This document shows, piece after piece, positions 1,579 through 62,018 of a DNA stretch of 64,000 nucleotides (position 1 is its first letter; the number at the start of each line of letters is the position of its first letter). The position numbers were made by a program, and so were the translations under genes. The DNA lies in the IMG/VR virus record IMGVR_UViG_3300027763_002499, positions 1-64,000 of that record. One strand, written 5' to 3'. The notes under the pieces were generated by a model. It was not told the DNA's origin and ran no database searches. It was given only the letters and a program-made list of their open reading frames with translations. Origin of the DNA: a virus.

Positions 1579-1905
1579 TTACAACGAATTCAAAGCTGGT
1601 TGCATAACTGCAATCAGTTCACGCTCACGGGCATGGGCCGCGGTTTTACCACGTACCACTTCCAGCAAGTAAGGTGTAAAGCCTTCACGACCGTATGTAC
1701 GAAGTGCTTCACACAGATTCCAGTTCTTGCTTTCTGTATTAGCACGGCTCAAGTGACGGTTAAAACGTCCACGCACAGAGCTCAATGCTGAGCCATCAAC
1801 TACAGTGATACCAATGTAGCTGTCACCAGTAACTTCGCAAAATAATTCATATATTGCGTGGTTACGATCTGTACGGCGCTTGCGGGTTACTGTTTTGCTG
1901 TTCAT
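1579..1905 (-). CDS. GIY-YIG nuclease-like protein
   Basis: 108 residues. AIYELFCEVTGDSYIGIT near residues 17-34 fits the GIY-YIG core (I-Y about 10 residues before Y-I-G-I-T). It is followed by an R-x3-H segment (RFNRHLSR), an ALRTYGREGF segment and an E (RERE) with a terminal N, the order expected for this nuclease fold. It could be a free-standing homing-type or host-DNA-degrading nuclease. The ATG begins 6 nt after the -10 box with no Shine-Dalgarno, and no other in-frame ATG lies near, so the mRNA should be leaderless. Confidence 0.6.
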   Translation of the reverse strand: MNSKTVTRKRRTDRNHAIYELFCEVTGDSYIGITVVDGSALSSVRGRFNRHLSRANTESKNWNLCEALRTYGREGFTPYLLEVVRGKTAAHARERELIAVMQPALNSL

Positions 1906-2129: not shown

Positions 2130-2420
2130 ATGAAAACCATTGAAACTACAATTTTTACACGCCCTGACAGTACACCAAAAGTCACATGGTTTAAACTATC
2201 AGAAGAACAACGTGCCGCTAGAAACCATATGAATGTGGCCATTGGTTACACTTTAACAAGTCCAACAACTCAGCTTGAAGTGATTTATTTTAACACAGAA
2301 GAAGCAATGGCTCAATGGAAAGCTAAACCAGAAGCTCAGGCAGTATTAGCCGCACGTGATGCTTATAATGCCGCAAATGGTATTATTGCATCAGCAACAA
2401 CTTCAGTTACTGTTGAATAA
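2130..2420 (+). CDS. small protein of a three-member local family
   Basis: 96 residues. It shares with the products of 3256-3564 and 3580-3894 a layout of an N-terminal T-R-P motif (IFTRPDSTPKVTW), a middle beta-rich stretch, an A-x-x-x-W-K/E-A segment and an Ala/Asn-rich C-terminus (AARDAYNAANGI). No catalytic residues are evident. Its late-type motif and position suggest a small virion or accessory protein; this is inference. Confidence 0.7.
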   Translation: MKTIETTIFTRPDSTPKVTWFKLSEEQRAARNHMNVAIGYTLTSPTTQLEVIYFNTEEAMAQWKAKPEAQAVLAARDAYNAANGIIASATTSVTVE

Positions 2421-2436
2421 ACTTGATTGGTTTTAA

Positions 2437-3174
2437 ATGCAAAAAATTCATGTACTTGGTGTACCTCGCAGTGGATCAAATTATGTGTTTTCAATGATTG
2501 CCAATAGAATTGAACCCAAGACTGCATTATTGTACCCGGATAGATTTGCATTAAACCATCGCCTTTATCATGGGCATTCTGATGAAAAACGCTTAGAACT
2601 AATATCTCAGTCAGTTGACGATGTTGTAGCCAGCACTTCTGCTTTAACTAAATCTCACCCGGGCCATTTATTTTATTTGTCACATAATAATCTAATAGGC
2701 AAATTTAAATCTGCTGATTTTTATAATATTGTAACTGTCAGACGCGATTTAGTACAAAGTTCAATTAGTCATGCCCGCAGTTTTGCAACCAAAGAGTGGT
2801 TTAAATATGATTTAGCAAAAAAGCCACTTATAATTAGCCAAGAACAAATACATAGAAGCATTAATATTATTGTTATTTCAGTATTACAAATATTAATTAA
2901 TAAACTTGATATTAAATACAATGAAATTGTATACTACGAAGACTTAACAGGTAATATGGATTTGGATATTAAAAAATTAGCAGTCGCAAAGTATACCAAA
3001 TTTGGCGAAGCAAAAAAGAACGCATCTGACCCAGAGATTAGTCCTAATAAAAAAGAAACTATTTTAAACTATGACGAATTGGTAGAAACGTGTCTTGAAT
3101 ACTTTGAAAATTTTCGTGATGAACGGTTGACAGTTGTCAATGGCATTGCTGACATCAAGCTTGACATAAAATAA
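2437..3174 (+). CDS. sulfotransferase-like P-loop protein
   Basis: 245 residues. VLGVPRSGSNYVFSMI at residues 6-21 matches the 5'-phosphosulfate loop (PRSGT/S-x-Y/F) of PAPS-dependent sulfotransferases, and the later segment VRRDLVQSSISHARS fits the 3'-phosphate site (R...S). TKSHPGH is the position of the usual catalytic-region K/H. It is a paralogue of the 5983-6714 product, sharing the EIVYYEDLTG segment. It would transfer sulfate from PAPS to an unknown acceptor. It is sandwiched between members of the small-protein family. Assignment rests on motifs only. Confidence 0.7.
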   Translation: MQKIHVLGVPRSGSNYVFSMIANRIEPKTALLYPDRFALNHRLYHGHSDEKRLELISQSVDDVVASTSALTKSHPGHLFYLSHNNLIGKFKSADFYNIVTVRRDLVQSSISHARSFATKEWFKYDLAKKPLIISQEQIHRSINIIVISVLQILINKLDIKYNEIVYYEDLTGNMDLDIKKLAVAKYTKFGEAKKNASDPEISPNKKETILNYDELVETCLEYFENFRDERLTVVNGIADIKLDIK

Positions 3175-3205
3175 CTAAAGTAGACCGATTATTTTGTCAG
3201 TTTTG

Positions 3206-3212
3206 GTAAATA
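3206..3212 (+). promoter_or_regulatory. variant of the CTAAATA motif
   Basis: GTAAATA lies 44 nt upstream of the 3256 start. It differs from the CTAAATA heptamer at one base and may drive the 3256-3894 pair. Confidence 0.25.
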
Positions 3213-3255
3213 AAAACATAGCCTAACGCCAAACAGTTGGGTAAATTTTAAGGAT

Positions 3256-3564
3256 ATGAAAATGATTTTAACTTATAGAAAATTAACTCGTCCGGCTGCT
3301 GTAGCACCTGCTACACCTACTCCATGGACTAAGCTTACAAAAGAACAAAAAGCTGCCGCTAAAAAGATGGGCGGCGTTGCACACAGCTCTATCAAAGCTG
3401 GTGCAAATACAATGATTGAATTTGTTGCTTTTTCAAACGAAGCAACCAAGGCCAAGTGGGAAGCAGATGCGGCAGTTCAGGCTGTTTTAGCCACAGTTAA
3501 CACTCAAAACACGGCCAGTGGTATTAGTGCTACAGGTTGGTCAACATTAAATGTTGCCGCTTAA
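3256..3564 (+). CDS. small protein of a three-member local family
   Basis: 102 residues (MKMILTYRKLTRPAAVAPAT...). It has the T-R-P motif near residue 13, a Pro/Ala-rich linker, FSNEATKAKWEADAAVQAVL and an Ala/Ser-rich end. It is closest to the 2130 and 3580 products, and the three probably arose by tandem duplication with a sulfotransferase inserted between. Function unknown. Confidence 0.7.
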   Translation: MKMILTYRKLTRPAAVAPATPTPWTKLTKEQKAAAKKMGGVAHSSIKAGANTMIEFVAFSNEATKAKWEADAAVQAVLATVNTQNTASGISATGWSTLNVAA

Positions 3565-3579
3565 TTAAAAGTAAATATT

Positions 3580-3894
3580 ATGGCAAGATTAAGAATTACA
3601 ACATACACAAGACCAGCGGTTACTGCGCCAGCAACTCCGGTTGATTGGTGGGACAAAACCAGTGGTGCAACACCAGCAGATAAGAAAACATTGGCCGGTC
3701 CAAGAGCATTGAATCGTGCCGCAACCACCAGTGGAAAAACAGACTACATTGTGTTTGAACTATTTAGAAATAATGCCGCAATGATGTCTTATGATGCAGA
3801 CGCCGCAGTTGTAGCAGTAAAGGCAAAAATTGCCACTTATAATACTGCTCATGCTATTACCAAAACTGAAGTTATTACAAACGTAGCTATGTAA
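3580..3894 (+). CDS. small protein of a three-member local family
   Basis: 104 residues (MARLRITTYTRPAVTAPATP...). It has the same layout as its two neighbours: YTRP motif, Pro/Ala linker, aromatic-rich middle (WWDKTSG), and DADAAVVAVKAKI. It starts 16 nt after the 3256-3564 stop. A terminator follows at once. Function unknown. Confidence 0.7.
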   Translation: MARLRITTYTRPAVTAPATPVDWWDKTSGATPADKKTLAGPRALNRAATTSGKTDYIVFELFRNNAAMMSYDADAAVVAVKAKIATYNTAHAITKTEVITNVAM

Positions 3895-3915
3895 ATAACA
3901 AATGTAAGGTTGAGT

Positions 3916-3939
3916 AAAATGGGCCAATGGCCCATTTTT
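3916..3939. terminator. bidirectional terminator between convergent genes
   Basis: A 10-bp perfect stem AAAATGGGCC / GGCCCATTTT with a 3-nt loop and a T run, between the plus-strand 3580-3894 gene and the minus-strand 3938-4240 gene. Confidence 0.85.
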
Positions 3940-4240
3940 ATCGTCCTAAACCTTGTCGGTAAGCTTCATTTTCACGTCTGCGCTTTTCTTCTTCGTAACG
4001 TTGACGAGCACCACGTTCACATGCCATACGCTCACTTGGATGTGTATATGCCTGGCAGTTTGTGGCAACAATAACAACTTCTTCTCGTACTACAACCGGT
4101 CTATGATGAGGTTGAGCCATTGCTGAACCAACGGCCATGCCAACTATACCACCGGCAATGGCAGGACCTGCATGGCGACTGGCACATCCAGTGGTCACAA
4201 CAGACATGGCTAACATTAAGATTAAAACAAGTTTTTTCAT
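3938..4240 (-). CDS. small lipoprotein with glycine-rich segment
   Basis: 100 residues. A type-II signal peptide ends in the lipobox VTTGC (Cys19). GPAIAGGIVGMAVGSAMA, a glycine-zipper-like stretch, follows, then a charged C-terminus. An AAAAGG site precedes the start. Probably exported and lipid-anchored; it could alter the host envelope during infection. Its role is not known. Confidence 0.65.
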   Translation of the reverse strand: MKKLVLILMLAMSVVTTGCASRHAGPAIAGGIVGMAVGSAMAQPHHRPVVVREEVVIVATNCQAYTHPSERMACERGARQRYEEEKRRRENEAYRQGLGR

Positions 4241-4243
4241 ATT

Positions 4244-5077
4244 TTACCTTTTCTTTTGAAAATTCTCAACTATTCTATAGTTATAATTTAGGTCACCCTT
4301 ATCAACGTGCAATAGATAATCTTCGTACGTTAATTTTTTAGAAAATATATTCTTTTCAAATTTATTTATTGTGATGTCACTGGTATCACGCTTTTCAATT
4401 GCTTGATATATTAAATTGGCAAATATTTCGAGATTTTGATTGGAGAAATGATTGACCCTAGGATCAGACCCACAGCTTCTGACCCACTCAATATAAGAAG
4501 AACAATTTTTAATCTCTGATTCAGAGATGTCATTTAAAGGAAGTGTTACATGCAAGAAGTTTGATGGGGCTTGTTTTGGTAAAGGTATTGCTTTTTCCAA
4601 TGCCCAGCCACCCATCAAAACAACAATAGAGTCTGGAAACAATTCAGCACAATTGCGTATAGCATGCATGTAACATGAATGATTTATGTTGATTAAATCA
4701 AGGTCAACATTTGTAAGGTACCATTTCAAATGTTCTTTGTTTTCTTTTAACCATTTATGTCTGGGTAAATTTTCATCTATTAGGTCAATAAACATTGGAG
4801 CATACAATGATGCAGATTCTGGATATTGTTTTTGAAATTCAAAATGTACACGGCCAGGATTGGACAATGATAAAATAATGACATCACCATTTTTAATTTT
4901 ATTATCGCTGATGTCGTTGTAAAAATTTGACATACAAAACTCAGCACTGCTGGCTCGAACTGCCTTGTTAAAAACAGGTAGATTCATTTTCTTAGACAGC
5001 AAACGTAACCAGCCCAATTTGGCGTCGTGTTGATGTGGTGCAATGTAACTATCACCGTATGACAAAATTCTTTTCAT
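4244..5077 (-). CDS. SGNH/GDSL-like hydrolase-fold protein
   Basis: 277 residues. YGDSYIAP at residues 7-14 gives the block-I GDS, and DPRVNHFSNQ near residue 210 could supply the C-terminal D-x-x-x-x-H of SGNH hydrolases. The middle includes LSLSNPGR. Phages carry many such proteins of unknown substrate, and two further members lie at 61128-62920. They may deacylate glycans or be catalytically altered. The start has no Shine-Dalgarno, and the upstream promoter candidate is weak. Confidence 0.6.
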   Translation of the reverse strand: MKRILSYGDSYIAPHQHDAKLGWLRLLSKKMNLPVFNKAVRASSAEFCMSNFYNDISDNKIKNGDVIILSLSNPGRVHFEFQKQYPESASLYAPMFIDLIDENLPRHKWLKENKEHLKWYLTNVDLDLININHSCYMHAIRNCAELFPDSIVVLMGGWALEKAIPLPKQAPSNFLHVTLPLNDISESEIKNCSSYIEWVRSCGSDPRVNHFSNQNLEIFANLIYQAIEKRDTSDITINKFEKNIFSKKLTYEDYLLHVDKGDLNYNYRIVENFQKKR

Positions 5078-5103
5078 TTATTATATAGTTAGACTATAGT
5101 ATT

Positions 5104-5132
5104 AATGTAACACCTATTAGATTAACTGTCAA
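5104..5132 (-). promoter_or_regulatory. possible sigma70-type promoter
   Basis: TTGACA (5127-5132), 17-bp spacer, TACATT (5104-5109), upstream of the SGNH gene. The -10 box is weaker than at the other sites. Confidence 0.45.
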
Positions 5133-5241
5133 TTGGTAATTTGCTCACTTTGAGCAGAGTCTGGCGTAACCCTGGACCAGGCAGCAGCCGCCTGTTTGAC
5201 GCCATTAACCGTTGACGACAACGTGCCCTAAGGTGGGTTCT

Positions 5242-5388
5242 TTAATGCTGACTGTATGGATTACGATACTTGTCGTAGCCATCCGAGTCGGGATATACGT
5301 AATAGATATCGGGACTATTCACTGGTTCTGCCAGTGGCTCAGCGTTTTGCTGTTGAAGGATTTGGTCCTCCAAATGTGTCTGTTCCAT
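5242..5388 (-). CDS. 48-residue protein overlapping the 5339-5617 gene
   Basis: It reads MEQTHLEDQILQQQNAEPLA, then a Tyr/Asp-rich end (YYVYPDSDGYDKYRNP). A GGAG site stands 8 nt before the ATG. It overlaps the C-terminal 50 bases of the neighbouring gene in another frame. A short acidic protein of unknown role. The rest of the 5078-5338 stretch holds only the weak promoter. Confidence 0.55.
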   Translation of the reverse strand: MEQTHLEDQILQQQNAEPLAEPVNSPDIYYVYPDSDGYDKYRNPYSQH

Positions 5389-5617
5389 ATGGATTTTCTC
5401 CTGTCATTTGTGGGCGGGCAAACCAAAGTTTGAACCAAGCGTCGGTGCCTGGTTCAATTTTGTGCTTTCTCATGTATTCAACTTTTTCAGCCGATGCATT
5501 TGTCAATGGGCTATCGCTACCAGCTACCTTTTTACCAGAGCCTAAGGTAATACCTGCCAGTTGACGTAGACGATCTATGTCAATTGCGCCGGGTTCTTCA
5601 ATGTCACGCATTTTCAT
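5339..5617 (-). CDS. hypothetical protein with IDIxRxxxLAGI motif
   Basis: 92 residues. The N-terminal segment AIDIDRLRQLAGI is shared with the 5617-5940 product (TIDISRIKKLAGI), so the two are related at least over this helix. The rest (GTDAWFKLWFARPQMTGENP) has no known match. Function unknown. Confidence 0.65.
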   Translation of the reverse strand: MKMRDIEEPGAIDIDRLRQLAGITLGSGKKVAGSDSPLTNASAEKVEYMRKHKIEPGTDAWFKLWFARPQMTGENPYGTDTFGGPNPSTAKR

Positions 5618-5940
5618 TATTCTTTTGACTTCATATAATCACGTACAGTATCTAAGTAGTCAACTGCTTTGGTGATTTTTGCTTGCACCCATTCTGGCAA
5701 GTTTTCATCACTGTCTAATATACTACGTAATTCCATGGCGGCATCAGCGGCTGTGGCCAAATCTTGTTGGGCCATTTTGCCTTCTTGATCATACTCGCCT
5801 GGGTCATTTTCCCCTAGCGCAACAGGAGTACCTGCTACCGTAGTAGCATTCATAATACCAGCAAGCTTTTTAATGCGGCTAATGTCAATTGTTTGATCAA
5901 CATTGATGCTGGCCATTGATTCTTTAATTTGTTTTGTCAT
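5617..5940 (-). CDS. hypothetical acidic protein with IDIxRxxxLAGI motif
   Basis: 107 residues, acidic, largely helical. It carries the same short motif near residue 19 as its downstream neighbour, which it touches at one base. The C-terminal half (LRSILDSDENLPEWVQAK) resembles phage structural-assembly or accessory proteins, but no assignment is made. Confidence 0.65.
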   Translation of the reverse strand: MTKQIKESMASINVDQTIDISRIKKLAGIMNATTVAGTPVALGENDPGEYDQEGKMAQQDLATAADAAMELRSILDSDENLPEWVQAKITKAVDYLDTVRDYMKSKE

Positions 5941-5982
5941 AATTTAGGTATTTGCTTGTATGTAGCAATATAAGTATTATTT

Positions 5983-6714
5983 ATGAGAAAACTACAAGTG
6001 CTTGGCATTCCTAGATCAGGAACAACGTATCTTTTTAAAGCAATATATCACCAAATTGCCCAGCCGTTTGATAATATCTTAAACGAAAGTTTCCACCCCA
6101 ACAACAAGCATTACAGGTCTTTTAACAGCGATGAAGTTTCTGGCGCCATTGACAGGGCCTTACAATCATGGTGCAATCCAGACCAATCTGCTGTGACAAA
6201 AACACATCCTGCACATTTGAATTATCTCAAAACAGCAAATCTCTTAGATAAATTTAAATCCATTGAGCCTTATACCATAGCAATAATTAGAAAATCAGTA
6301 GTTGATACAGCCATTAGCAATGCCAGGTCAACGCAAACTGGAGAATGGATTTCCTATAATATACAAGAACCAATATTGATAGATACTGGGCTGTTTGAAA
6401 AGTCTCTAAAGGCATCCAGCAGAAATCTAACGGATCTTGTGGAAAATAAATGGGCCTTGGTCTACGATGAAGTTGTGTACTATGAAGATTTAACAGGTGA
6501 ACCCGAGGTTGATGTTACAAAATTTAAAATTTATGATTCCGTGAACTTTGTCAAAAGATCCAATTTAAAATTGAATGTTAAAAGGTTCCCTGACAAACGT
6601 CTATCAATAACAAACTACAATGAATTAGTTGACATTGCTGTGGACTTTTATGCCAAATTAAATCATCCGCAGATTGAATTTGACGGTGAAGCAGTAAAGG
6701 TAAACCTGGCGTAA
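5983..6714 (+). CDS. sulfotransferase-like P-loop protein
   Basis: 243 residues. VLGIPRSGTTYLFKAI at residues 6-21 is a clear PAPS 5'-phosphosulfate loop, and IIRKSVVDTAISNARS is the 3'-phosphate region. It is homologous over its length to the 2437-3174 product (both have DEVVYYEDLTG or a close variant and LxNYxELV). It is an isolated plus-strand gene between minus-strand operons. A second sulfotransferase implies a second acceptor or a duplicated dose. The acceptor cannot be read from sequence. Confidence 0.7.
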   Translation: MRKLQVLGIPRSGTTYLFKAIYHQIAQPFDNILNESFHPNNKHYRSFNSDEVSGAIDRALQSWCNPDQSAVTKTHPAHLNYLKTANLLDKFKSIEPYTIAIIRKSVVDTAISNARSTQTGEWISYNIQEPILIDTGLFEKSLKASSRNLTDLVENKWALVYDEVVYYEDLTGEPEVDVTKFKIYDSVNFVKRSNLKLNVKRFPDKRLSITNYNELVDIAVDFYAKLNHPQIEFDGEAVKVNLA

Positions 6715-17855: not shown

Positions 17856-18485
17856 TTACACAGGACTTCGTATTCTTTCAAATCTTTCGATGAAATCTCC
17901 ACATTGTAGGCGCATCATAGCGGCATCTTCGGCACTGTAAAGATAAAGATGTAATGGCTGTCCCCATCCATAAATTCTAGGCAGTTTTTCAGCTCCTAGA
18001 ATAGTTTTTAGCAGTCCGGCGGCATGCCAATCGTTTTCATCAAGACCATTAACTGCGCCTTTAAATAACTCAACGCCGTTTTGCCTAAAATTTTCATTGT
18101 AATTAATACGGGCACGAATAGGAAAACGACCATACCATAATGTTTTTCTAATAATGTCATACCCATGCAATAACATTAAATCTTTGGCTGTGTCATTCTC
18201 TGGCTGCCAAATTTCAATAATAGAATGTTCAAATTCATCTAAGACTTTTTCTAGGTCTTCGACGGTGTTTAAGAATATGCTCAGATTTGATTCAGCACGA
18301 ATGCCAGCTTCGGGCATATTTTTACTGAACCAATCTTTAATTAAAGATATATTAACTCTTCGCTTATCCAAATCGTCCCTTTGCATACGATGACCATAGT
18401 ATGCATTTCGTGCAGGTTCAATTTTAATGATAACCTTGATTGGCCATTTTTTCCAAAACAGACGTTGAGTATGTTGTATTTTCAT
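17856..18485 (-). CDS. hypothetical protein
   Basis: 209 residues with mixed alpha/beta character. KWPIKVIIKIEPARNAYYGH, then MPEAGIRAESNLSIFLNT, then a Trp/Tyr-rich end (LPRIYGWGQPLHLYLYSAED). It starts at the stop of the ClpA-like gene (TAATG). It looks like a conserved phage protein of unknown function and is probably late. Confidence 0.65.
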   Translation of the reverse strand: MKIQHTQRLFWKKWPIKVIIKIEPARNAYYGHRMQRDDLDKRRVNISLIKDWFSKNMPEAGIRAESNLSIFLNTVEDLEKVLDEFEHSIIEIWQPENDTAKDLMLLHGYDIIRKTLWYGRFPIRARINYNENFRQNGVELFKGAVNGLDENDWHAAGLLKTILGAEKLPRIYGWGQPLHLYLYSAEDAAMMRLQCGDFIERFERIRSPV

Positions 18486-20701
18486 TATGCAATTACTAAC
18501 TTCTCATCCGCACAAGTAATGTTGTGAATCGTAAATCCATCTTTGATAATACGTTTAGCAATTGGCAAACGAATTTCTTCATTGATCAATCGTTTCATTG
18601 GGCGAGCACCCATTGTCTCGCTGTATCCATGTGTAGACAAATAGTCCAAAGCGGCATTGTCATAGTTAATAGATTGACCTTGTTCAGACAATTGGTCTCT
18701 AATTTGCTTCATAAACTTGTCAGCAATACGATGAATAACTGATCTTTGCAAACGATTGAACTTGACCACAGCATCTAAACGATTGCGGAACTCAGGTGTA
18801 AAGAATCTCTTAACTGCTTCTTCGGTTGCACTATCATTCAACCCGCCACCAAATCCAATTACATTCTTTTCGCTGTCTGTAGCACCCAAGTTTGATGTTA
18901 AAATTACATAGGCATTACGAGCACTTACTTGCTTGTTATCACTGCCTGTAATAATACCATTGTCAAGTAAGCCAAGCAAGACTTGAATAACATTTGGGTG
19001 AGCCTTTTCAATCTCGTCAAACAATAACACACAATTTGGTACACGCTCTAATTCATTGATTAGCTTACCGCTACCAGTTTTACCCTCACCATAGCCAACA
19101 TAACCGGGTGGACTACCAATCAAGCTGGCAATTTTGTGTTGCTCTTGGTATTCACTCATATCAAAGCGCACAACTTCCATGCCCAGGCCTTCTGCCAATT
19201 GGTTAGCAAGTTCTGTTTTACCAGTACCAGTTGGACCAACAAACAAGAAGTTAGCCATTGGGCGATTTACCTCTTTAAGTCCCGACTTGGCAATATAAAC
19301 CATGTTCATGAGTTTTTCAATTGCTTCATCTTGCCCAAATACATTTGTACGCATACGGCTTTCAAGGTCAGCCACAGCAACATTCTTCTGCTCGCCCAAC
19401 TGCTCAATTGGCACACGAGTTAAGTCGCTTACTTCAGTTCTAATATTGTCTTTAGTTACTTCTGTACCGGCTTGAATGTTATTAACACGCAACCTAGACA
19501 TTGCCGCATCAATAATATCAATGGCCTTGTCAGGTAATTTCTTGTCCAGCATATACTTCATTGAGAGGTCAATTGCTAAATCAATTGCTTCTTCGCCAAT
19601 GCTTAGATTGTGATATTTTGCATACACCGGAGCAACTCTACGCAACATTACCTTGGTTTCTTCTACGCTAGGTTCGTTGACGTCAACTCTAGTAAATCGA
19701 CGCAACAATGCGCGATCTTTCTCAAAGTGTTCGCGGAATTCTTCATAAGTTGTACTACCAACACAACGAAGCTTGCCCTTTTCCAGGGATGGCTTTAACA
19801 AGTTAGCAACGTCCATGCTACCTTGCCCACCAGCACCAGCACCCATAATCATGTGGATTTCATCAATGAACAAGATTACGTCATCTCGTTCTTCTAATGC
19901 TTCTAGCACATGTTGCATACGTTCTTCAAAGTCACCGCGATATCTTGTACCAGCAAGTAATTTGCCAATGTCTAAACTATAAATTACTTTCTTTTTAAGT
20001 ACATCAGGAACTTCATTGCGGATAATAGCAACAGCAAGTCCTTCTACAATGGCTGTTTTACCTACACCCGGTTCACCAACCATGATAGCATTATTTTTCT
20101 TTTTACGAGTAAGCGTTTGCGCCAAGCGGAACACTTCCTTTTCACGACCAATTAAAGGATCAATAAGTTGTTTCTCGGCACTCTTGTTTAAGTTGGTTGT
20201 ATATTTGCCTAGAATCTTTTCACTGTCACGTTTTTTGGCTGTTTTACTTTCTTTACTATGTCCATCTTTTAATTTGCTAACATAATTAAGAATAGTTTCT
20301 TTATTAATACCATTTTTTGCCAAGAAGAAGTTAGCATGACTATTTTTTTCACTGGTCATGCTAATAAGCAAATCTAACGGCTCCATATGGCCGCGCCCAG
20401 TGAAGATTGCCTGTGTATATGCGCGATTAAAACAACGTTCCAATGTGGCTGTTTTGCGAGGCTTGGTTACGCCTTCAACACGAATGTCTTCCTGGATTCG
20501 TAACCAATCGTTAATCTCTTCTACCAAAGACATAACATCTACGTCGAGCTCGGTTAAGACATCTCGTATATCCTCTTCTTCAAGCATGACTCTTAAAATA
20601 TGCTCCAATGTAACATATTCATGCTCTCTACTAAGTGCGTCTTGGAACGCACGAGCAATAACTTCGTTGATACGATTGTTATTTTCTTGTTCTTGGGCCA
20701 T
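18485..20701 (-). CDS. clpA: ClpA-type AAA+ unfoldase
   Basis: 738 residues. N-terminal Clp-N repeats (to about 145), AAA+ D1 with Walker A GEPGVGKT at 209-216 and Walker B ILFIDE, no ClpB-type middle domain, D2 with GPTGTGKT at 489-496, and a C-terminal D2-small domain. The D2 loop carries I-G-F at 615-617, the tripeptide with which ClpA/ClpX dock on ClpP. It would unfold substrates for ClpP, with ClpS (45079-45384) as possible adaptor. No ClpP is in this window. It could remodel host proteins or virion assembly intermediates. Full ClpA length. Confidence 0.9.
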   Translation of the reverse strand: MAQEQENNNRINEVIARAFQDALSREHEYVTLEHILRVMLEEEDIRDVLTELDVDVMSLVEEINDWLRIQEDIRVEGVTKPRKTATLERCFNRAYTQAIFTGRGHMEPLDLLISMTSEKNSHANFFLAKNGINKETILNYVSKLKDGHSKESKTAKKRDSEKILGKYTTNLNKSAEKQLIDPLIGREKEVFRLAQTLTRKKKNNAIMVGEPGVGKTAIVEGLAVAIIRNEVPDVLKKKVIYSLDIGKLLAGTRYRGDFEERMQHVLEALEERDDVILFIDEIHMIMGAGAGGQGSMDVANLLKPSLEKGKLRCVGSTTYEEFREHFEKDRALLRRFTRVDVNEPSVEETKVMLRRVAPVYAKYHNLSIGEEAIDLAIDLSMKYMLDKKLPDKAIDIIDAAMSRLRVNNIQAGTEVTKDNIRTEVSDLTRVPIEQLGEQKNVAVADLESRMRTNVFGQDEAIEKLMNMVYIAKSGLKEVNRPMANFLFVGPTGTGKTELANQLAEGLGMEVVRFDMSEYQEQHKIASLIGSPPGYVGYGEGKTGSGKLINELERVPNCVLLFDEIEKAHPNVIQVLLGLLDNGIITGSDNKQVSARNAYVILTSNLGATDSEKNVIGFGGGLNDSATEEAVKRFFTPEFRNRLDAVVKFNRLQRSVIHRIADKFMKQIRDQLSEQGQSINYDNAALDYLSTHGYSETMGARPMKRLINEEIRLPIAKRIIKDGFTIHNITCADEKLVIA

Positions 20702-20753: not shown

Positions 20754-21563
20754 TTAAATTTTATTCAATATGTCAACAATTAGTCTGTTCTTATCTTCAG
20801 GATCGAGTCTTGGTATTTCTACTTCTACTTTAATAAAAGCATTGCCTCTTAGACTGGAGCCACGAATATTTAGCCCACGATTCTTGAGCCTAAGCTGGGT
20901 ACCAGGTTGAGTACCAGGGGGTATTGTAACTTCTATTTCTGATCCGCCAATTTCTTTAACAGTTATTGACCTGCCAAACATTGCTTCTAGGACATTGATT
21001 TTGTATGATGTTACTAAATCGTGATGACTGTTTGCGTTAATCTTCCAAACTGCATGTGGCATAATGTCCAATCTAGCATAAAGGTCACCTGGCGGTCGTT
21101 GTGGAAGCATTTGTGCTCCTCCGCCAGCATAGCGTATCTTAATATCTTTAGATGAACCAGCCGGAAAGGTTACGGTAATTTCTTTAACTGTTCCTTCGGG
21201 TGTTGTAAAATCTACAACTTTTGTAAATCCGTTGTGTGCTTCTTCCAAGGTTGCTTGTATACTAATTGTTATATCCGGATTCTTAACATCTTTTGCTTCC
21301 CAATGGAATCCAAAGTTTCCTGGATTAGCATGTCTGCCCATGTTAAAGAAATTACCAAAGTCTTTGAACCCACTGGCATTATTGAAAGACTCCTGTGAAG
21401 CCTGACCAGATGTAATAGCTTCGTATGCTTCTTTGATTTTTTTGAATTCATTTTCATCACCGCCGCGGTCAGGGTGATGTTTCATCGCTAGCTTCCGATA
21501 TGCTTGTTTAACTTCATCGTCACTTGCGCTACGTGTTAAACCTAAAACCTTGTAATAGTCCAT
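20754..21563 (-). CDS. DnaJ/CbpA-type co-chaperone
   Basis: 269 residues. An N-terminal J domain with the HPD triad at 30-32 is followed by a Gly/Phe-containing linker and two beta C-terminal domains ([34 protein letters not shown]). There is no CxxCxGxG zinc finger, so it resembles CbpA/type-II DnaJ. It should stimulate host DnaK. It lies directly upstream of the ClpA-like gene. No DnaK or GrpE is seen here. Confidence 0.9.
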
Positions 21564-44483: not shown

Positions 44484-45095
44484 TTACTTTAAATACCGTT
44501 GTAGTGCTTGTTCTATATCAGTCCAATTGTTAAACTTTCGGATGCGAATATCTGAAAATTCATGGTTCCATGGCTGATTCATTAAAAATGTAGCATGCCC
44601 TGCCTGAGCACTGGCTATGGCTGTTGATTCAAGAGCAGTGATACAAATACTATAATCATAGCCTTTTAAAATTGGATAAAAATTTTCATCTTTGTGCATC
44701 ACATAGACATCGTTGAAAATACCAGGAAAAAGTAGTTCAAGATTTGCTCTGCGTAATATTGCCCTATGCATGTCTTTGCTTGCTCTACTGAAAGCAATGA
44801 TATGCCAACCTCGACTTTTAATTTTAGACAGTGCTGTATCTGCTCCTAGACATGGAAGGGTAGCACCCCATTGCCAAGAATATTCGGTAAATTCTTTAAG
44901 CCATAAATCAGCGTGTTCATCACTAACGCCTAGCCAGGATCCAAGTTTTTCCCTGTCAGATATTTTTTCTGAGGAAACTTTACTTAAACGATCTAGTCCT
45001 GCTAGCCATTTTACAAATGCAGTAAGCGTATCAAGACACGTATCGTCTATGTCGATGATTAACTTTGGTGGTAGTTCATCAGACGAGTTCAACAC
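44484..45095 (-). CDS. HAD-like protein (GTG start)
   Basis: 203 residues starting at a GTG that overlaps clpS by 17 nt. Motif I LIIDIDDTCLDTL and the motif-II-like HIIAFSRAS are clear. The late acidic motif is not: where the 24559 paralogue has IEDKP, this one has ICITALESTA, so a metal ligand seems lost. It may bind rather than hydrolyse phosphates. Confidence 0.6.
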   Translation of the reverse strand: MLNSSDELPPKLIIDIDDTCLDTLTAFVKWLAGLDRLSKVSSEKISDREKLGSWLGVSDEHADLWLKEFTEYSWQWGATLPCLGADTALSKIKSRGWHIIAFSRASKDMHRAILRRANLELLFPGIFNDVYVMHKDENFYPILKGYDYSICITALESTAIASAQAGHATFLMNQPWNHEFSDIRIRKFNNWTDIEQALQRYLK

Positions 45096-45384
45096 TAACC
45101 CCTAATGGGTGACCATTTGTTCTAGCAACCTGTGTAGACTCAAGTGCTTTTTGTTCAGCAACTTCGTAGCTATAAATTCCAGCAGTGCCTTTTCCTTTTT
45201 CATGTACTTCAAGCATGATTTTAACAGAAGCATCATGGCTGTGGTGAAAAATTGCTTTTAGCAATTCAATTACAAATTCCATAGGCGTAGCGTTGTCGTT
45301 TAAAATAACAACACGGTAACGTTCGGGCTCTTTTACTCCTACTATGTTTTCTGTTTTCTTAATTGTGTCTACTGCTGTGCTCAT
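45079..45384 (-). CDS. clpS: ClpS-type N-recognin adaptor
   Basis: 101 residues. The core YRVVILNDNATPMEFVIELL, AIFHHSHDASVKIMLEVHEK and YSYEVAEQKALES cover the ClpS signature (D-x-x-T-P-M-x-F-V, H-x3-A). The hydrophobic pocket for N-degrons is thus present. It normally feeds N-end-rule substrates to ClpA; the phage also has a ClpA-type unfoldase at 18485-20701. A CTAAATA motif lies upstream. Confidence 0.9.
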   Translation of the reverse strand: MSTAVDTIKKTENIVGVKEPERYRVVILNDNATPMEFVIELLKAIFHHSHDASVKIMLEVHEKGKGTAGIYSYEVAEQKALESTQVARTNGHPLGVSVELV

Positions 45385-45443: not shown

Positions 45444-45875
45444 TTATTCCTTTATTAAAGGAATTTTTTTAGGTTGTAGTTGGTCTGGAATTTGTTGTTC
45501 CAAATCAATGACTAACATACCGTCTTTGAGACTTGCTGTTTTTACTTCAACATGGTCAGCTAATACAAATTCTTGTTTAAAATTTCGTTTAGCAATACCA
45601 CGGTAAACAAAAGTAGTATCAGCAGATTCCTCTTCTGATTTCTTACCTTCTACAACAAGGATATTTTCTTGTTGAGTAACATCAATATCAGCTTCACTAA
45701 AGCCTGCGACGGCCATAGTGATGCGAGTAGCAGTGTCACTGATCTTCTCAACATTGATTGGTGGGTAAGTACTTTTACCTTGGGGGCTTGTAGCCATTAA
45801 GCGTTCGAGTTCATTAAAAATGTTATCGAAGCCGATACCAAAGTGGTGTGATGGGAATAGTCGCAGATTTGACAT
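45444..45875 (-). CDS. small heat-shock protein Hsp20 (IbpA type)
   Basis: 143 residues with an alpha-crystallin domain: INVEKISDTATRITMAVAGF, ENILVVEGKKS, RGIAKRNFKQEFVLADHVEV, LKDGMLVIDL. It starts SNLRLFPSHHFGIGFDNIFN, like IbpA. A holdase that keeps misfolded proteins soluble. It has its own promoter with a long leader. Confidence 0.9.
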   Translation of the reverse strand: MSNLRLFPSHHFGIGFDNIFNELERLMATSPQGKSTYPPINVEKISDTATRITMAVAGFSEADIDVTQQENILVVEGKKSEEESADTTFVYRGIAKRNFKQEFVLADHVEVKTASLKDGMLVIDLEQQIPDQLQPKKIPLIKE

Positions 45876-45998: not shown

Positions 45999-46274
45999 TT
46001 AAAATAACCTTTTTCTTGTACCTTCTCTTGCTGGTCTGCGTCCTTCAAGTTCATCTTTTTCAACCTGACGCAACCAGCGTCTACGGGCTTGATTTTCATC
46101 TTTTAATCTACGCACACATGGTTTTACATACTCCATGCGTTCGCGGACTTCTTCTAATAGGCCGCTTTCCTGAATTTTGTTCTTAAATTTTCTTAGAGCT
46201 TTGTCAACATTGCCATCCTTGACTTCTACTCTTGCTCCACCCTTTCTTGTGGAACTTGGCTTGTCTCTACTCAT
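45999..46274 (-). CDS. rpsU: ribosomal protein bS21
   Basis: 91 residues. [36 protein letters not shown], and a basic C-terminus match bS21, with about 20 residues more than the E. coli protein. bS21 sits next to the anti-Shine-Dalgarno in the 30S subunit and affects mRNA selection. Phage bS21 is known from large phages. It starts as an ATGA with clpX. Confidence 0.85.
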
Positions 46275-47506
46275 CTTGCAATGACTTCTTTATTTTTATA
46301 GATCATAACAGGCAAGTGGTCCTCCACTGCTTTTTCGTTGATTATGACTTTACTTAATCCTTCATGTGATAATTCGGGTAGATTAAACTGTGTTTTTAAC
46401 AGAATATTCTCAACAATGCTCCTGATTCCACGAGCGCCTGTTTTTTTAATAAAACCAAGTTTGGCTATGGCTTTTCTTGCTTCGGGTGTAAATTCTAGAG
46501 ATACCTTATCCATTTCAAATATAGCACAATATTCTTTTTCAATGCTATCTTCTGGTTCAGTCATAATTCTAACCAAGTCTTCAATCGACAATTCATTGAG
46601 AGTTGTTATTACTGGTATACGTCCCATGAACTCGGGAATCATACCAAACTTAACAAAATCGTCGGGTTCAACAGCAGACAACCACGAATCAACATTTTGT
46701 TTTGCTGATTCTACTGTAGCATTAAAACCAATTTTTACCCCACCGGTCACACGCTTTTTTACTTCTTCTTCGAGACCAACAAATGCGCCGCCAAGGATAA
46801 ACAGTATATCTTTTGTATTAACAATGTTTGCTTCACTGCCCGGGTGTTTACGTCCACCGTTAACTGGTACACGACACTCGGTACCTTCTATTAATTTTAA
46901 CAATGCTTGTTGTACACCTTCGCCTGATACGTCACGAGTAATACTTGCGCTTTCACTCTTACGACCTTTCTTGTCAATTTCGTCAATGTAGATAATACCT
47001 TTTTCAGCTTTCTTAATGTCACCATCGGCACTTTGAACAAGACGATGAATAATACTTTCAACGTCGTCACCTACATAACCACTTTCAGTTAGTGTGGTAG
47101 CATCAGCAACAGCAAACGGAACATTAAGGCGCTCTGCTAATTTTTTAGCAAGCAATGTCTTACCACTACCCGTTGGCCCAATCAATAGTACATTACTTTT
47201 CTTAATAAGATTGCCAAAGATGTTATAGTGCAATCTTTTGTAATGATTTCTAACTGCGACGCTCAGTGCAATCTTTGCTGAGTCTTGGCCAACAACAAAT
47301 CTATCAAGATATGATTTAATTTCACTAGGGGTAGTTGTATCGTTAAACTCAATGTTTTTATTTTTATCTTTGTCTGAATCCAATGCTTCAAGGCAAAGAT
47401 TAATACACTCGTTGCAAATGTATGCCTTGTCCCCAGCAATTAGTGCTTGGACTTCGTCCCTATGCTTATTGCAAAAACTGCAATAGAGTGATATTGACTT
47501 ATCCAC
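46271..47506 (-). CDS. clpX: ClpX unfoldase
   Basis: 411 residues from a GTG at 47506; a TTG one codon earlier is also possible. A four-cysteine zinc domain (CSFC...CNEC) dimerises and binds adaptors. Walker A GPTGSGKT, Walker [10 protein letters not shown], the RKH-like and [18 protein letters not shown] segments are intact. The loop VKIGFNATV supplies the I-G-F that docks on ClpP. Full-length and apparently functional. Operon with bS21. Confidence 0.95.
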
Positions 47507-47921
47507 CAAAAGCTGCCTCTAATAATACAGGTAAGTTATCCAAGTCATCAAAGCAAGGAACGTCGATTGCATTGAGCAAAGCAACAAACTCGTCGTTACC
47601 ATCCTTCACATAAAATACAACAGGATTATCTAATTTGCAAAGTCCTAATGCCATGCGTATTTCTTGTTCAGTACAACTTGATGTATCAACAATGATTAAA
47701 TTACAATTATCAACCACATGCCAATACCAGACCCAAGCCTTTGGGTCTTTTGAACCTGATTCATTTACATAAAATGTAATTTGATTCTGAACTACCTTTT
47801 CAATTGTAGTTAGGGCTTTGTCTTGCCATTTTTTATCACTACCTATTAGACATATTGCAATGCCTCCACCAGGCATATACAATGTTGGTGGACTAACAAC
47901 ATAAACATTAGAATCGTTCAA
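47499..47921 (-). CDS. hypothetical protein, perhaps 2-deoxyribosyltransferase-like
   Basis: 140 residues. [20 protein letters not shown] resembles the N-terminal IFLAGP/W-Q-x-x segment of nucleoside 2-deoxyribosyltransferase-like proteins, and [20 protein letters not shown] the later D...E-x-x-x. The match is weak. It lies upstream of clpX with overlap. Confidence 0.4.
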
Positions 47922-52543: not shown

Positions 52544-53350
52544 TTATTTACAAATGGCCCTCTTTGCGTTGGTCAAAGCACCAAAATCCACGGCCCACTC
52601 TGATCCAACAGCTAGTTCCTTGGCACCTGTTGGATATTCATATTTTACCCCGGCTTCCTTTTGTATTTGTGCAATTGGAGAACGGAATTTAGTAAGGTCA
52701 TTGCCTAGATTAACATATGGTTTGGTATGTGGGAATTTCCATCCAGCCATTTCCTTAGTAGCATTGTTAATTACAATTTTATAATAACCGTGTGGGACAA
52801 TAACCTTACCCGGACCTATAAATTCATCGCCTGATCCATAGAATGCACCTACATAAATTGTATAAGGTTGATTATGTTGTACAGCCCAACCACGAATACT
52901 AGTTTCTAACAATTTCCAAATACCACGATTTAGACTGCCGTGTTGTGGATACATGTTGGTCATTAGGAAACTTTCGTACTCTACTTGTTCACTCCAAGAT
53001 AAGTCACCATCTGGAGCGGCATGGCCCTTGTCATAGCCTGTACCAGCATAGTCATCTGGCTTTGCACCGTTGGGAACTGATTTGTCTGCTACAAAGGCAT
53101 TTGTGCGTGGCCAGCAACCTAATGCATTTTTTGGAAGTAGCGTATAACTTACATACGCTGGAATTTTAACAGGTGCATCATAAGCAACCAAATATGCTTC
53201 ACGGCAAATTGGTTTTGCATCTCTGGTTGTTTCAGCAAAACCATATGGGGCATGAACTTTACATGCGGCAAGTGGCAATGGCGCACGTTGTTCCCATGCA
53301 TGTGATATGTTAGCAAAAAATACAAGTGCTAAGACGAGTAATCGTTTCAT
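52544..53350 (-). CDS. secreted DNA/RNA non-specific endonuclease
   Basis: 268 residues from the ATG at 53350 (AAAGGA upstream). Signal peptide MKRLLVLALVFFANISHA, then the endonuclease G/NucA domain with YDKGHAAPDGDLSW (the D-R/K-G-H motif, catalytic His) and MTNMYPQHGSLNRGIWKLLE (Asn and Glu metal site). It would act in the periplasm or outside the cell. Its stop is followed by the VCBS lipoprotein promoter. Confidence 0.85.
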   Translation of the reverse strand: MKRLLVLALVFFANISHAWEQRAPLPLAACKVHAPYGFAETTRDAKPICREAYLVAYDAPVKIPAYVSYTLLPKNALGCWPRTNAFVADKSVPNGAKPDDYAGTGYDKGHAAPDGDLSWSEQVEYESFLMTNMYPQHGSLNRGIWKLLETSIRGWAVQHNQPYTIYVGAFYGSGDEFIGPGKVIVPHGYYKIVINNATKEMAGWKFPHTKPYVNLGNDLTKFRSPIAQIQKEAGVKYEYPTGAKELAVGSEWAVDFGALTNAKRAICK

Positions 53351-53376
53351 TGGAAAATCCTTTAAAACGATACTTA

Positions 53377-54834
53377 TCAATATACTGGTATATTATGTAG
53401 ATTTTGAAATTTCAGTGCATCATCCCAGGTGTTTACCAAGGGCTCACCTTTGATGTTAAGGCTTGTATTCATTAATACAGGACAACCGCTTTTTCTGTTC
53501 CACTCTTCCAATAATGTTCTAAAAGTTATATTGTCATCTTTTGATACAGTTTGCACCCTACTTGTTCCATCTACATGACAAACTCCAGGCAGTTCACCGC
53601 TGGTACACTTTGCTACAAACTGCATATAAGGACTAGAGGACACAGGCATGTCAAAGTATGCACCAGCATGTTCTTTTAGTACTGCTGGTGCAAATGGTCT
53701 AAACTGTTCTCGCTTTTTAATAGCGTTCATTCTAGACTTGGCTTTGGGTCCACGCGGGTCACATAGTAGACTACGATTGCCTAACGCTCTTGGTCCAAAC
53801 TCTGCTCTGCCATTTGCTACTGCTACTACTTCTCCTGCCTGTAGACGTTTGACCACAGCATCAATGTCAAGTTCACGTTCAATATCTGTGCCAAGATAAG
53901 GATGCTTCCATGTCAAGTGCTCTTTGGTATGTACGGCAACTGCTCCAATAGCACTACCAGCATCACCAGGGTTAGGCATGATCCAAATGTTGTCAAAGAC
54001 TTGACTGCGAGCAAGCCTAGCATTGGCAACACAATTTAATGCCACTCCCCCCATGAACACAAGATTTTTGCTCTTGATATTCATGCTCATACCAATTACA
54101 GTTTCTATCAGGTAATCTTCAACTATGCTCTGAACACATGCGGCAATATCAAACTTATTGGTGTTTAATGGTGCAGTCCACCAACGACATCCGCGATGTA
54201 AGTTATGTCTTAGTTTAAAATCTGGTGCTTCAATATATTCAAAGAATTCATTCTTAATATGGTTTTTAAGAACTAGGTCAACAGAACCATATGCTGCCAT
54301 GCCCATAAGAATGTATTCTTCTTCGTTGGGCTTTAGGCCAACATAATCAGTAAATGCTGTGTAAAACAATCCAATGCTATTGGGATAACGCTGTCGCCAT
54401 TTACACTTTAATTTATTTGCCTGACCTTCCCAGATGCTAACAGTATCCCATTCACCAATGGCATCAACTACAAGTACTGCGGCATCACTGTATCCGCTTG
54501 TGTAGTATCCAGCTGCCGCATGACTATGATGGTGTCCAACAACCTCCATTGGCAAATTATCCAACCCAACAAGTTTGAGTTGATCTTGAGGATTTACAAT
54601 CCAAGGTCTTTGTCCCGAGTAAAGTCTACGCAAATTCTTAGACCAAGGCTTTTCAAACCATACAATTTGAGTTGGTTCGCCGTACTCACGCATTTCACGC
54701 ACCATGTTAACATCTAACATAGTATCGTTTTTCTTTCTGCTATAGCGTTCGCTGTGCCCTGCCCAGAGTATTTTATCTCCATCAATCAGTGCCATACTGG
54801 CATCATGATTCTGGGCAGTGATACCCAGAATCAT
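53377..54834 (-). CDS. carbamoyltransferase (NodU/TobZ/CmcH family)
   Basis: 485 residues. ILGITAQNHDASMALIDGD and the metal motif HHHSHAAAGYY in the Kae1-like N-terminal half, FMGGVALNCVAN and the C-terminal RAEFGPRALGNRSLL (carbamoyl-adenylate transfer). It makes carbamoyl-AMP and transfers the carbamoyl group to a hydroxyl. In phages, homologues carbamoylate 5-hydroxymethylcytosine; other members modify sugars or antibiotics. It is last in transcription of the modification cluster. Confidence 0.9.
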   Translation of the reverse strand: MILGITAQNHDASMALIDGDKILWAGHSERYSRKKNDTMLDVNMVREMREYGEPTQIVWFEKPWSKNLRRLYSGQRPWIVNPQDQLKLVGLDNLPMEVVGHHHSHAAAGYYTSGYSDAAVLVVDAIGEWDTVSIWEGQANKLKCKWRQRYPNSIGLFYTAFTDYVGLKPNEEEYILMGMAAYGSVDLVLKNHIKNEFFEYIEAPDFKLRHNLHRGCRWWTAPLNTNKFDIAACVQSIVEDYLIETVIGMSMNIKSKNLVFMGGVALNCVANARLARSQVFDNIWIMPNPGDAGSAIGAVAVHTKEHLTWKHPYLGTDIERELDIDAVVKRLQAGEVVAVANGRAEFGPRALGNRSLLCDPRGPKAKSRMNAIKKREQFRPFAPAVLKEHAGAYFDMPVSSSPYMQFVAKCTSGELPGVCHVDGTSRVQTVSKDDNITFRTLLEEWNRKSGCPVLMNTSLNIKGEPLVNTWDDALKFQNLHNIPVY

Positions 54835-56904
54835 TTAAATACCCTTCCACTTACTAACTGGAATGTCGCCGCCACAGTGGCAACGCAAACTATTACAGAT
54901 AACCGGGCGAGAAAAACTGTCCCAATTAATTTTATCAAATTCTTTTACAGAGCCAACAACACCGCCTACATCACAATTTCCACGTTTGATATGTCCATTT
55001 TGATGAATGAATAAACTTTCAGCACCAATGTTGCACAAGTAATCATAGAAGTTTGTCTGTCCTTTGTTGATTAGACCCTGAGGACTTGTTATGTTTTCAG
55101 TGGTGTTATCTTCAAAGGTTGCTTGGACAGGAGTTGCATGGAAATCTCTATATATTGGATTGGTTATTCTAATCAAATCAGCAGATGATCGACTTGGTGT
55201 TTCTTTAAATGTTTTAAAAAATTCAAGTTGTTCTTCGCTGTAATTAATTTTAGCCAACTTGGTCCTGCTTGCACCATACTGGTCGTCGATATAAACAATT
55301 TCAATTTTAGCAGTAGTTTTCTTTTTAAGTTTTTCAATGAACTCTATAGATTTATCCCAATGCAACGGATCCATCATAATACGAGCCGCAACTTGAGTTT
55401 CTAAACTGGCAATTTTAATTTTTTCCAACCATTCATCTGCTGTACCATTGGGAAACTCTTGTGCTGGATGAAAGCTACATGCCGCATAAGTCAGATATTT
55501 AAAATTATCTTTAATAAATCTTGGAGTACGCACAAGATTTGTAGTCATACCACCGGTACCACCAAGAGTGTGAATACGCTCAATCATCTCCGGGAAGAAA
55601 GGACTTAGCGTAGGTTCTCCACCGCTCAATGAAAATGTCAAATGCCGGTTCTTGCCATATTGTTCAAATAACCTGTCAAGGAAAGGAGAAACAACATCCC
55701 AGTTAAACAAATGGTTTTTTCCATCGTGTAATACTGGTGGGCAATACCTACAAGCATAATTACAAATGTCATTTAAGATCCAGGTAATGATTGCTTTGTC
55801 TTCATTCTTAATTTCAATGATCTTTTTAGCCTGGACTGGGATTGGAAACTTCCACTGCGGAATACGTGCTCTTGGAGTTTTAAATGCTGAATGCATTTGT
55901 ATGTTGTCAACAATCTGTACATCTTGGATGCTTTTAAATCTACTTAGGTCTTTCTTCAAGCCATGTGATGCAGAATATAATGTATCTCGTTGTTCACCTA
56001 GCATGTGCCCAATGCCCATATACCCATGGCGATTGTCTGGATGAGACCATTTGTGTCCTTGTATGCCATCAATGTTTAATGCTTTGAATTTTTTATATTC
56101 ATTTGTAAGTGTATATGGATCATAATCGTCATATACAAGATACGCGGCCATTTCATTAGACCATGTTTCCTGACGATAAAAGGCATTTTCGTCAACAGCT
56201 CGTTGGTCATTATCAGCAATAATGTGACTCATGTTTTTACCAAGAGTATTATAGCCTAGTACCAAGTCGCCAAATCTAAGCCTGTGTAAAAAGCTGGCTG
56301 CATCCTCTTCGGTAATTTCAAAATCAATCCTTGGATTGAAACTGATCAAAATATTGGCAGCAGAATAACTAGGTTCCTTTTTGCCTGATCCTCTTTTTTT
56401 AATAAACATTTCAGCAGTGTGAATAGCATCGTTCAACTGAATGAATGTACTGTGAAAATCCTCATTGAAGGTAATACCTGGCCAACACTTGGCTTCTGGG
56501 CTGTCTGCTGAAATGCGTTTATAAGCATCATCCCACCATTTTTGTGATAGCTTTTCGCTTAGACGTTCACCATAAATCTCATATTCCTCGTGGAGGTAAT
56601 TTAGTGCATCTTGATCGTGTTCTCGAAACATTGTCAATGGGCGGTCATAAAAAAGATTAATTTTTCTAACAATATTACTCAAACGCTCATCAAGATCCAA
56701 TCCTTGATAGGCCGCACTCCTTGTAAACTTAATGCGCTTTTCTCGAAAACTTTTCTCTCCGTAACGCATGTCTTCCATGAGCTTGACCCATTTCTTGGCA
56801 AGATTGGTATTGTACAGCTTATAGTATATGTCAAAAGGTTCCCACGTTGTTGTATCAACAAGCGTGAGCCGTACGTTTTTGTCGTTTAGATATTTTCCGC
56901 TCAT
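54835..56904 (-). CDS. radical SAM enzyme with large N-terminal extension
   Basis: 689 residues. The radical SAM motif CNYACRYC (Cys381, 385, 388) is followed by FSLSGGEPTLSPF, then a Cys-rich C-terminal SPASM-like part (GNCDVGG, CNSLRCHCGGD). The first 370 residues (LNDKNVRLTLVDTTTWEPFD ...) are unlike any domain I know. A [4Fe-4S] enzyme that makes a 5'-deoxyadenosyl radical. Substrate unknown; peptide or nucleoside are both possible. Confidence 0.85.
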   Translation of the reverse strand: MSGKYLNDKNVRLTLVDTTTWEPFDIYYKLYNTNLAKKWVKLMEDMRYGEKSFREKRIKFTRSAAYQGLDLDERLSNIVRKINLFYDRPLTMFREHDQDALNYLHEEYEIYGERLSEKLSQKWWDDAYKRISADSPEAKCWPGITFNEDFHSTFIQLNDAIHTAEMFIKKRGSGKKEPSYSAANILISFNPRIDFEITEEDAASFLHRLRFGDLVLGYNTLGKNMSHIIADNDQRAVDENAFYRQETWSNEMAAYLVYDDYDPYTLTNEYKKFKALNIDGIQGHKWSHPDNRHGYMGIGHMLGEQRDTLYSASHGLKKDLSRFKSIQDVQIVDNIQMHSAFKTPRARIPQWKFPIPVQAKKIIEIKNEDKAIITWILNDICNYACRYCPPVLHDGKNHLFNWDVVSPFLDRLFEQYGKNRHLTFSLSGGEPTLSPFFPEMIERIHTLGGTGGMTTNLVRTPRFIKDNFKYLTYAACSFHPAQEFPNGTADEWLEKIKIASLETQVAARIMMDPLHWDKSIEFIEKLKKKTTAKIEIVYIDDQYGASRTKLAKINYSEEQLEFFKTFKETPSRSSADLIRITNPIYRDFHATPVQATFEDNTTENITSPQGLINKGQTNFYDYLCNIGAESLFIHQNGHIKRGNCDVGGVVGSVKEFDKINWDSFSRPVICNSLRCHCGGDIPVSKWKGI

Positions 56905-56924
56905 AAAGTCCTCAAATAATGTTT

Positions 56925-61127: not shown

Positions 61128-62018
61128 CTATAGTGAATATTTGGAGACAAAGTAATTATACACATTGTCGGCTGCTATATCGTGTATATATTCCATGACA
61201 TGGCCGCCGATCCTGGCCACTGCCTTGTTTGCATCTTGTTTTTTTGCAATATCTTCTAAGTCTATTAGGTAGCCAATATCTAATTCTTTGTAAAGCTGTT
61301 GTATTGCCCAATTTATTGATGATGGCGGTTCTCTAGATCCTGCCAATTCAACTAACCAATCTGGGGCCATTTCGGTGACTGATCTTACAAAATACAGTTC
61401 AATCCCTTTGCTTTGGCAAAATGTTTTTAGCAATAAATTAGAAAGCAACCACTTGTGTAACCGCACATCTTCATGTTCGTGCATTATCGCAGTTTTGCGT
61501 ATAGCATCAATTTGTGTACCAGTGCGAGCAGGTTCATTGCTTAACAAAATAGAAGACCAATAATTAACTGTTTCGTTAAAGTATTGAATCCTATTGACAC
61601 TGGTAGTTCCAATTAAGAAAATTACTCGTTTGCCTTGTGTTCGCCCGTGTTTTGTTTCGTTTAAGTATTGGTCAATAATTTCTCTGTTGATCCATTCTTG
61701 GCTTGCACCACCGCATGCATAATTATGTACAGTACATTTCACACCAGGGTGGTTAGAAAGTCTCATTGCAATTTTAGCAGGATAGGCCCTGTTACGGTTT
61801 TCGTTCATTAGACTATCTTGTTGTTCCCGGGTAAGTTTGGTATTATTTTTACGTTGAAACCACGCCTTTACCATATTCTGTCTATTTACTTTGTTGTCAA
61901 TTCCTCGCCACTCATTGAACGTTATATCTTCATGACCAACATTGGTGTAAAATAAATCATCAGACAGCTCTTCGCCAGCTGTAAAGCTATCACCACATGC
62001 AAAAATTACTATTTCCAT
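61128..62018 (-). CDS. SGNH-like protein, tandem copy 1
   Basis: 296 residues. FACGDSFTAGEELSDD gives the GDS block (Ser11). NYACGGASQEWINREI supplies block II/III G and N, and a late GGHVMEYIHDIAAD the His. So an SGNH hydrolase fold is likely, perhaps an esterase or acetyltransferase. It is a duplicate of 62033-62920. Confidence 0.7.
   Translation of the reverse strand: MEIVIFACGDSFTAGEELSDDLFYTNVGHEDITFNEWRGIDNKVNRQNMVKAWFQRKNNTKLTREQQDSLMNENRNRAYPAKIAMRLSNHPGVKCTVHNYACGGASQEWINREIIDQYLNETKHGRTQGKRVIFLIGTTSVNRIQYFNETVNYWSSILLSNEPARTGTQIDAIRKTAIMHEHEDVRLHKWLLSNLLLKTFCQSKGIELYFVRSVTEMAPDWLVELAGSREPPSSINWAIQQLYKELDIGYLIDLEDIAKKQDANKAVARIGGHVMEYIHDIAADNVYNYFVSKYSL

Follow-up and report, generated by a model that had tools for sequence, protein, structure and literature searches.

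The two sulfotransferase-like genes ST1 and ST2 of an uncultured tailed phage are best read, with fair though not high confidence, as diverged paralogues within a phage subfamily of PAPS-dependent, Stf0-like sulfotransferases, which would be carried as accessory cargo in two genomic slots, with ST1 having been inserted into an older array of small-protein genes. Both genes lie in the window, i.e., the whole 64-kb stretch of DNA that was analysed, which constitutes the first part of a longer record (G000, 90.5 kb) from an uncultured virus. The tail-fibre genes at 9.9-17.2 kb, together with a phage clamp loader, identify this virus as a tailed phage. Between positions 2130 and 6714 its minus-strand genes are interrupted by five plus-strand ORFs, of which four follow one another (those of the small protein T1, ST1, and the small proteins T2 and T3) and the fifth, ST2, stands apart.

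Sequence and predicted fold of the sulfotransferase-like proteins

ST1 (2437-3174, plus strand, 245 aa) and ST2 (5983-6714, plus strand, 243 aa) are 34% identical over 229 aa (E=1e-42) and carry the loop sequences VPRSGSNY and IPRSGTTY, respectively. This confirms the claim of a preliminary description that two paralogues with a PRSGT/S loop occur on the plus strand amid minus-strand genes. In terms of sequence families, Pfam Sulfotransfer_3 (PF13469) is the sole recurring match, being recovered by six of the eight homologues, including ST1, with every score under the curated cut-off of 27 bits (best 20 bits). The Stf0 family, PF09037, was matched by none of the eight members at an E-value limit of 10, and searches of PDB and NCBIfam sequences with these proteins gave no meaningful match. 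Membership in PF09037 or PF13469, as defined by the curated models, was hence rejected, the former being unmatched and the latter sub-threshold.

An AlphaFold model built from the eight-sequence alignment (pLDDT 86, pTM 0.85) was compared with 350,542 PDB chains using Foldseek. The trehalose 2-sulfotransferase Stf0 of Mycobacterium smegmatis (1tex) ranked first with E=2.8e-4, albeit with a TM-score of only ~0.5; shikimate and adenylate kinases came close behind, and SULT and heparan 3-O-sulfotransferases were also present in the list. Stf0 resembles ST1 and ST2 in its size of ~245 aa, the arginine in its PSB loop, the +9 spacing of the 3'PB arginine and serine, and the presence of an acid after the first helix, but it shares merely 13-16% identity with them.

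The sulfotransferase fold is described as a PSB strand-loop-helix unit with a basic residue that is Lys or, as in Stf0, Arg, a serine in the 3'PB helix and a small β-sheet (PMC11625862), and the Arg-Ser spacing distinguishes Stf0 (R143/S152, +9) from AST IV (R132/S140, +8) (PMC10638397). In an alignment of nine homologues, the counterparts of R11, R102 and S111 of ST1 are invariant. R11 belongs to the PSB loop (PRSGSNY in ST1), which the model places between a strand at residues 3-8 and a helix at residues 14-22, while R102 and S111, with a spacing of +9, are associated with a strand at 96-101 and a helix at 105-118. Position 35 is occupied by D or E in all nine (D35 in ST1), and this acid is presumably the counterpart of the catalytic glutamate of Stf0. 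Further, a YED motif (within YYEDL in ST1) is conserved among the homologues.

These features also bear on the alternative, which we regard as improbable, that ST1 and ST2 are not sulfotransferases but NTP-utilizing enzymes, such as P-loop kinases. The shikimate and adenylate kinases among the fold matches and the sub-threshold sulfotransferase sequence matches could be cited in its favor; however, the loop (PRSGSN) lacks the Walker A lysine of the GxxxxGKS/T pattern, the R...S helix is conserved at the Stf0 spacing along with the YED motif, and Stf0 is the top fold match. The fold, the motif spacing and the weak but recurring Pfam match support the earlier assignment of both large proteins as sulfotransferases, and, on the predicted structure and conserved motifs, ST1 and ST2 are likely to be PAPS-dependent enzymes of the Stf0-like type.

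ST1, ST2 and their homologues constitute a new subfamily; phage sulfotransferases as such are already known. Sulfotransfer_3, which includes sulfotransferases from the metagenomic genomes of OM43 phages and from the Synechococcus phage S-SRM01 (PMC10580990), likewise comprises phage-borne accessory genes, but the present homologues fall below its cut-off and have no tblastn match among 50,697 phage records.

Two variable slots and an older small-protein array

Seven loci with homologues emerged when 2.9 million viral contigs were scanned by pattern. The neighborhood of the window recurs in G001 (105 kb) and G002 (14.6 kb), and G003, G004 and G005 are distant; the contigs L042 and L044, both of which are fragments, were retrieved by means of a flanking metallopeptidase-like gene. 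No cultured relative was recovered by tblastn or megablast among the above-mentioned phage records, with one search giving chance-level matches only. Plasmids gave no match, and a pattern scan of bacterial genomes detected no relative.

Comparison of these loci reveals two variable sites. The first houses the small-protein genes, with T1 (2130-2420, plus strand, 96 aa) preceding ST1 by 16 bases, and T2 (3256-3564, plus strand, 102 aa) and T3 (3580-3894, plus strand, 104 aa) following it, the nearer after 81 bases. One flank of this site is formed by the gene for a GIY-YIG nuclease (1579-1905, minus strand), or genes near it, across the loci; on the other side in the window is a lipoprotein-like gene (3938-4240, minus strand) that is a conserved neighbor in G001 and G002. 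The number of small-protein copies at the site ranges from three in the window through two each in G001, L042 and L044 to one in G002. The second slot, flanked by a small conserved gene (phrog_32745; 5617-5940, minus strand), is occupied by ST2 in the window with no adjoining small-protein gene, by two overlapping sulfotransferase genes in G001, by one in G002 and by a GNAT acetyltransferase in L042. Neither L042 nor L044, both fragmentary, yielded a sulfotransferase.

A tree groups ST1 with the tandem pair of G001 (support 0.999), although the slots differ. Additionally, T1 is orthologous to copy b of G001 at 65% identity, and T3 to the single copy of G002 at 54% and to copy a of G001 at 40%; since no sulfotransferase separates the T1 and T3 orthologues in G001, ST1 is most simply explained as an insertion into an older tandem array of small-protein genes. 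The G+C content is 32% for ST1, 37% for ST2 and 39% for the window. All of this fits exchangeable genes, and the sulfotransferase genes are, as judged from the relatives, interchangeable accessory cargo at two variable sites beside conserved genes.

The preliminary description had also noted three related small proteins with a T-R-P motif around one of the sulfotransferases, and this holds: they are homologous, with a single gene before ST1 and two after it. T1 and T2 (E=4e-12) and T2 and T3 (E=5e-7) are directly related, and T1 and T3, which show no significant direct similarity (E=1.4), are linked via T2 and the above-noted orthologues. A profile of the three recovers T1, T2 and T3 and nothing else across the 90.5-kb record. 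The T-R-P motif is invariant in the copies from the window, G001 and G002, and only R-P is retained throughout the farther homologues. The AlphaFold model of T2 (pLDDT 88) has a β-α-β-β-α-β arrangement and its PDB matches are mostly dimeric α/β-barrel ABM proteins, such as SnoaB (3kg0) and IsdG, with TM-scores of 0.6-0.7, but at ~8% identity. The small proteins are thus predicted to be ABM-like dimeric α/β barrels. They have no match in Pfam, including ABM and NIPSNAP, or in PHROG, including any PHROG of known structural function, and no catalytic residues were identified. The clear viral fold matches of T2 are three uncharacterized proteins of uncultured Caudovirales (BFVD A0A6J5TDP7, A0A6J5TBT2 and A0A6J5TA28), which are alike in size and fold (TM 0.74-0.78) but share only ~20% identity.

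An ACTAAATA element at 2098-2105 on the plus strand, ~31 nt before the start of T1, is a possible promoter; it recurs ~30-40 nt ahead of three genes in the window and also precedes small-protein genes in L042 and L044 and copy b of G001. Between T3 and the oppositely oriented lipoprotein-like gene, a near-palindrome around TGGGCCAATGGCCCA (3916-3938) is a possible bidirectional terminator. The T4 late promoter sequence TATAAATA is depleted (one in the window against ~9 expected) and therefore unusable for timing expression. As ST1 lies inside the array and no promoter of its own is visible there, it is probably co-transcribed with the small-protein genes.

This probable co-transcription, along with the co-occurrence of both families in G000, G001 and G002, is what could be adduced for the earlier proposal that the T-R-P proteins are the substrates of sulfation or sulfated virion parts. 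The proposal nonetheless finds no support in the wider comparison, and we consider it highly unlikely. The array predates the insertion of ST1, the number of its copies is independent of the enzymes, and the small-protein family occurs on contigs with no detected sulfotransferase (the fragments L042 and L044) and in unrelated phages (L088 and L111); conversely, no small protein is present in the marine sulfotransferase carriers G003-G005, which are also fragments. Moreover, the widest alignment of the small proteins has no invariant Tyr, Ser or Thr, and the predicted ABM-like fold is no recognizable virion fold. The distribution of the family speaks against a role as dedicated sulfotransferase substrates. 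The distant homologues in L088 and L111, which keep R-P, are situated near genes named by eye as holo-ACP-synthase-like and desaturases, in neighborhoods that look metabolic, not structural. Solute-binding receptor genes also occur near the small-protein genes, including one of the DctP family in L042 (5471-6436; Pfam E=1.6e-53) and two recognized by eye in L088 (5609-6550) and L044 (5344-5892).

Possible PAPS supply and other genes of the phage

In G004 and G005 a gene for a small APS-kinase-like P-loop protein directly follows the sulfotransferase, and in G003 it comes shortly after a tandem sulfotransferase pair. Against a Pfam APS_kinase cut-off of 21.1 bits, the G004 kinase scores 30.4 and that of G003 35.9, with generic AAA models scoring slightly higher in G004. 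The kinase is followed by a nucleotidyltransferase with a weak match to CTP_transf_like. In G001 the kinase and nucleotidyltransferase domains are fused, in the same domain order as in animal PAPS synthase, and adjoin a third, divergent sulfotransferase-like gene at ~100.3-101.0 kb with an Arg-Ser spacing of 9; here the APS_kinase match is borderline (19.1 bits alone and 21.7 with neighbors, against the same cut-off). Searches of the 90.5-kb record, itself a fragment, detected no APS kinase.

The location of a homologue beside an APS-kinase-like gene in three related genomes hints at a phage-encoded supply of PAPS. The presence of the kinase alone says little, as more than 500 viral stretches contain an APS-kinase-like gene, and of the 80 best loci just one has a member of this sulfotransferase family within the fetched flanks; a specific linkage of the two was rejected on this account. 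The pairing of an APS_kinase-like gene with a nucleotidyltransferase gene is itself widespread in viral contigs, in varied contexts (L124-L203). It is nevertheless conceivable, although at low probability, that some of these phages carry a full sulfation module, comprising a nucleotidyltransferase that perhaps makes APS, an APS-kinase-like enzyme that would make PAPS, and one or more sulfotransferases.

The phage encodes several other conspicuous groups of genes. Around ten SPASM-like radical SAM genes form a long run, located at 54835-59448 of the window and at 1048-11405 of L038 (~65.0-75.4 kb of G000); Pfam Radical_SAM was confirmed for two of those in the window and the rest were recognized by eye. 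Near this cluster, Pfam identifies a carbamoyltransferase (53377-54834), an aspartyl/asparaginyl β-hydroxylase (62924-63718) and a DNA/RNA non-specific endonuclease (52544-53380). By eye, ClpA-like (18485-20701), ClpS-like (45079-45384) and ClpX-like (46271-47509) genes are present in this one phage, with no ClpP noticed, as are DnaJ-like (20754-21563) and small heat-shock-like (45444-45875) genes. An N-terminal GDS(Y/F) motif, by eye like that of SGNH hydrolases, is present in three further proteins (4244-5077, 61128-62018 and 62033-62920), and those of them that were searched had no Pfam or PHROG match.

Predicted reaction, acceptor and significance

The paralogy, the resemblance in fold, the invariant motifs and the variability of the slots are computational results, from which the catalysis, its acceptor and a surface effect are inferred. 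The proposed reaction would take place inside the infected cell, in its cytoplasm. PAPS would be bound at the strand-loop-helix bearing P-R-x-G-S/T and at the R...S helix, and, with the conserved acidic residue that follows the first helix as the probable base, the sulfuryl group would be passed to a hydroxyl, most likely that of a carbohydrate or another small acceptor. The sulfated molecule is hence most likely a glycan or a small hydroxylated molecule, and the product would alter a surface glycan of the host or of the virion. Such surface tailoring by the putative sulfotransferases is possible given that 3-15 kb separate their genes from those for the tail fibres.

A more specific version, in which the target of ST1 and ST2 is a virion protein, such as that of a tail fibre, or a glycan attached to such a protein, could appeal to this proximity and to the linkage of the second slot to the tail-fibre genes, which is kept in G001. 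However, proximity is the whole of this link, and the homologues in G003-G005 belong to clusters of radical-SAM genes, and no tail gene was recognized there within the fetched flanks, so that we judge this version unlikely. Similarly, sulfotransferase-based nucleotide modification in phages has been suggested by one paper (PMC10829341), and ST1 and ST2 might by analogy attach sulfate to the DNA or nucleotides of the phage; yet no base-hypermodification cluster was seen beside the sulfotransferase genes, among the genes examined, and the closest fold is that of a sugar sulfotransferase, which leaves such a role very improbable.

Sulfotransferase genes have been reported from phages before, with their role stated to be unclear (PMC10580990). 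Against this background, the Stf0-like subfamily described here, with its clear PAPS-site motifs, tandem copies and exchange in and out of defined sites, offers concrete proteins for asking what phages sulfate, and the possible PAPS-making partner in near relatives adds to its value in this regard. If a full sulfation module of the kind considered above does exist, some of the phage 'cysC' genes that are now read as belonging to sulfur assimilation would instead feed the sulfation of a product during infection.
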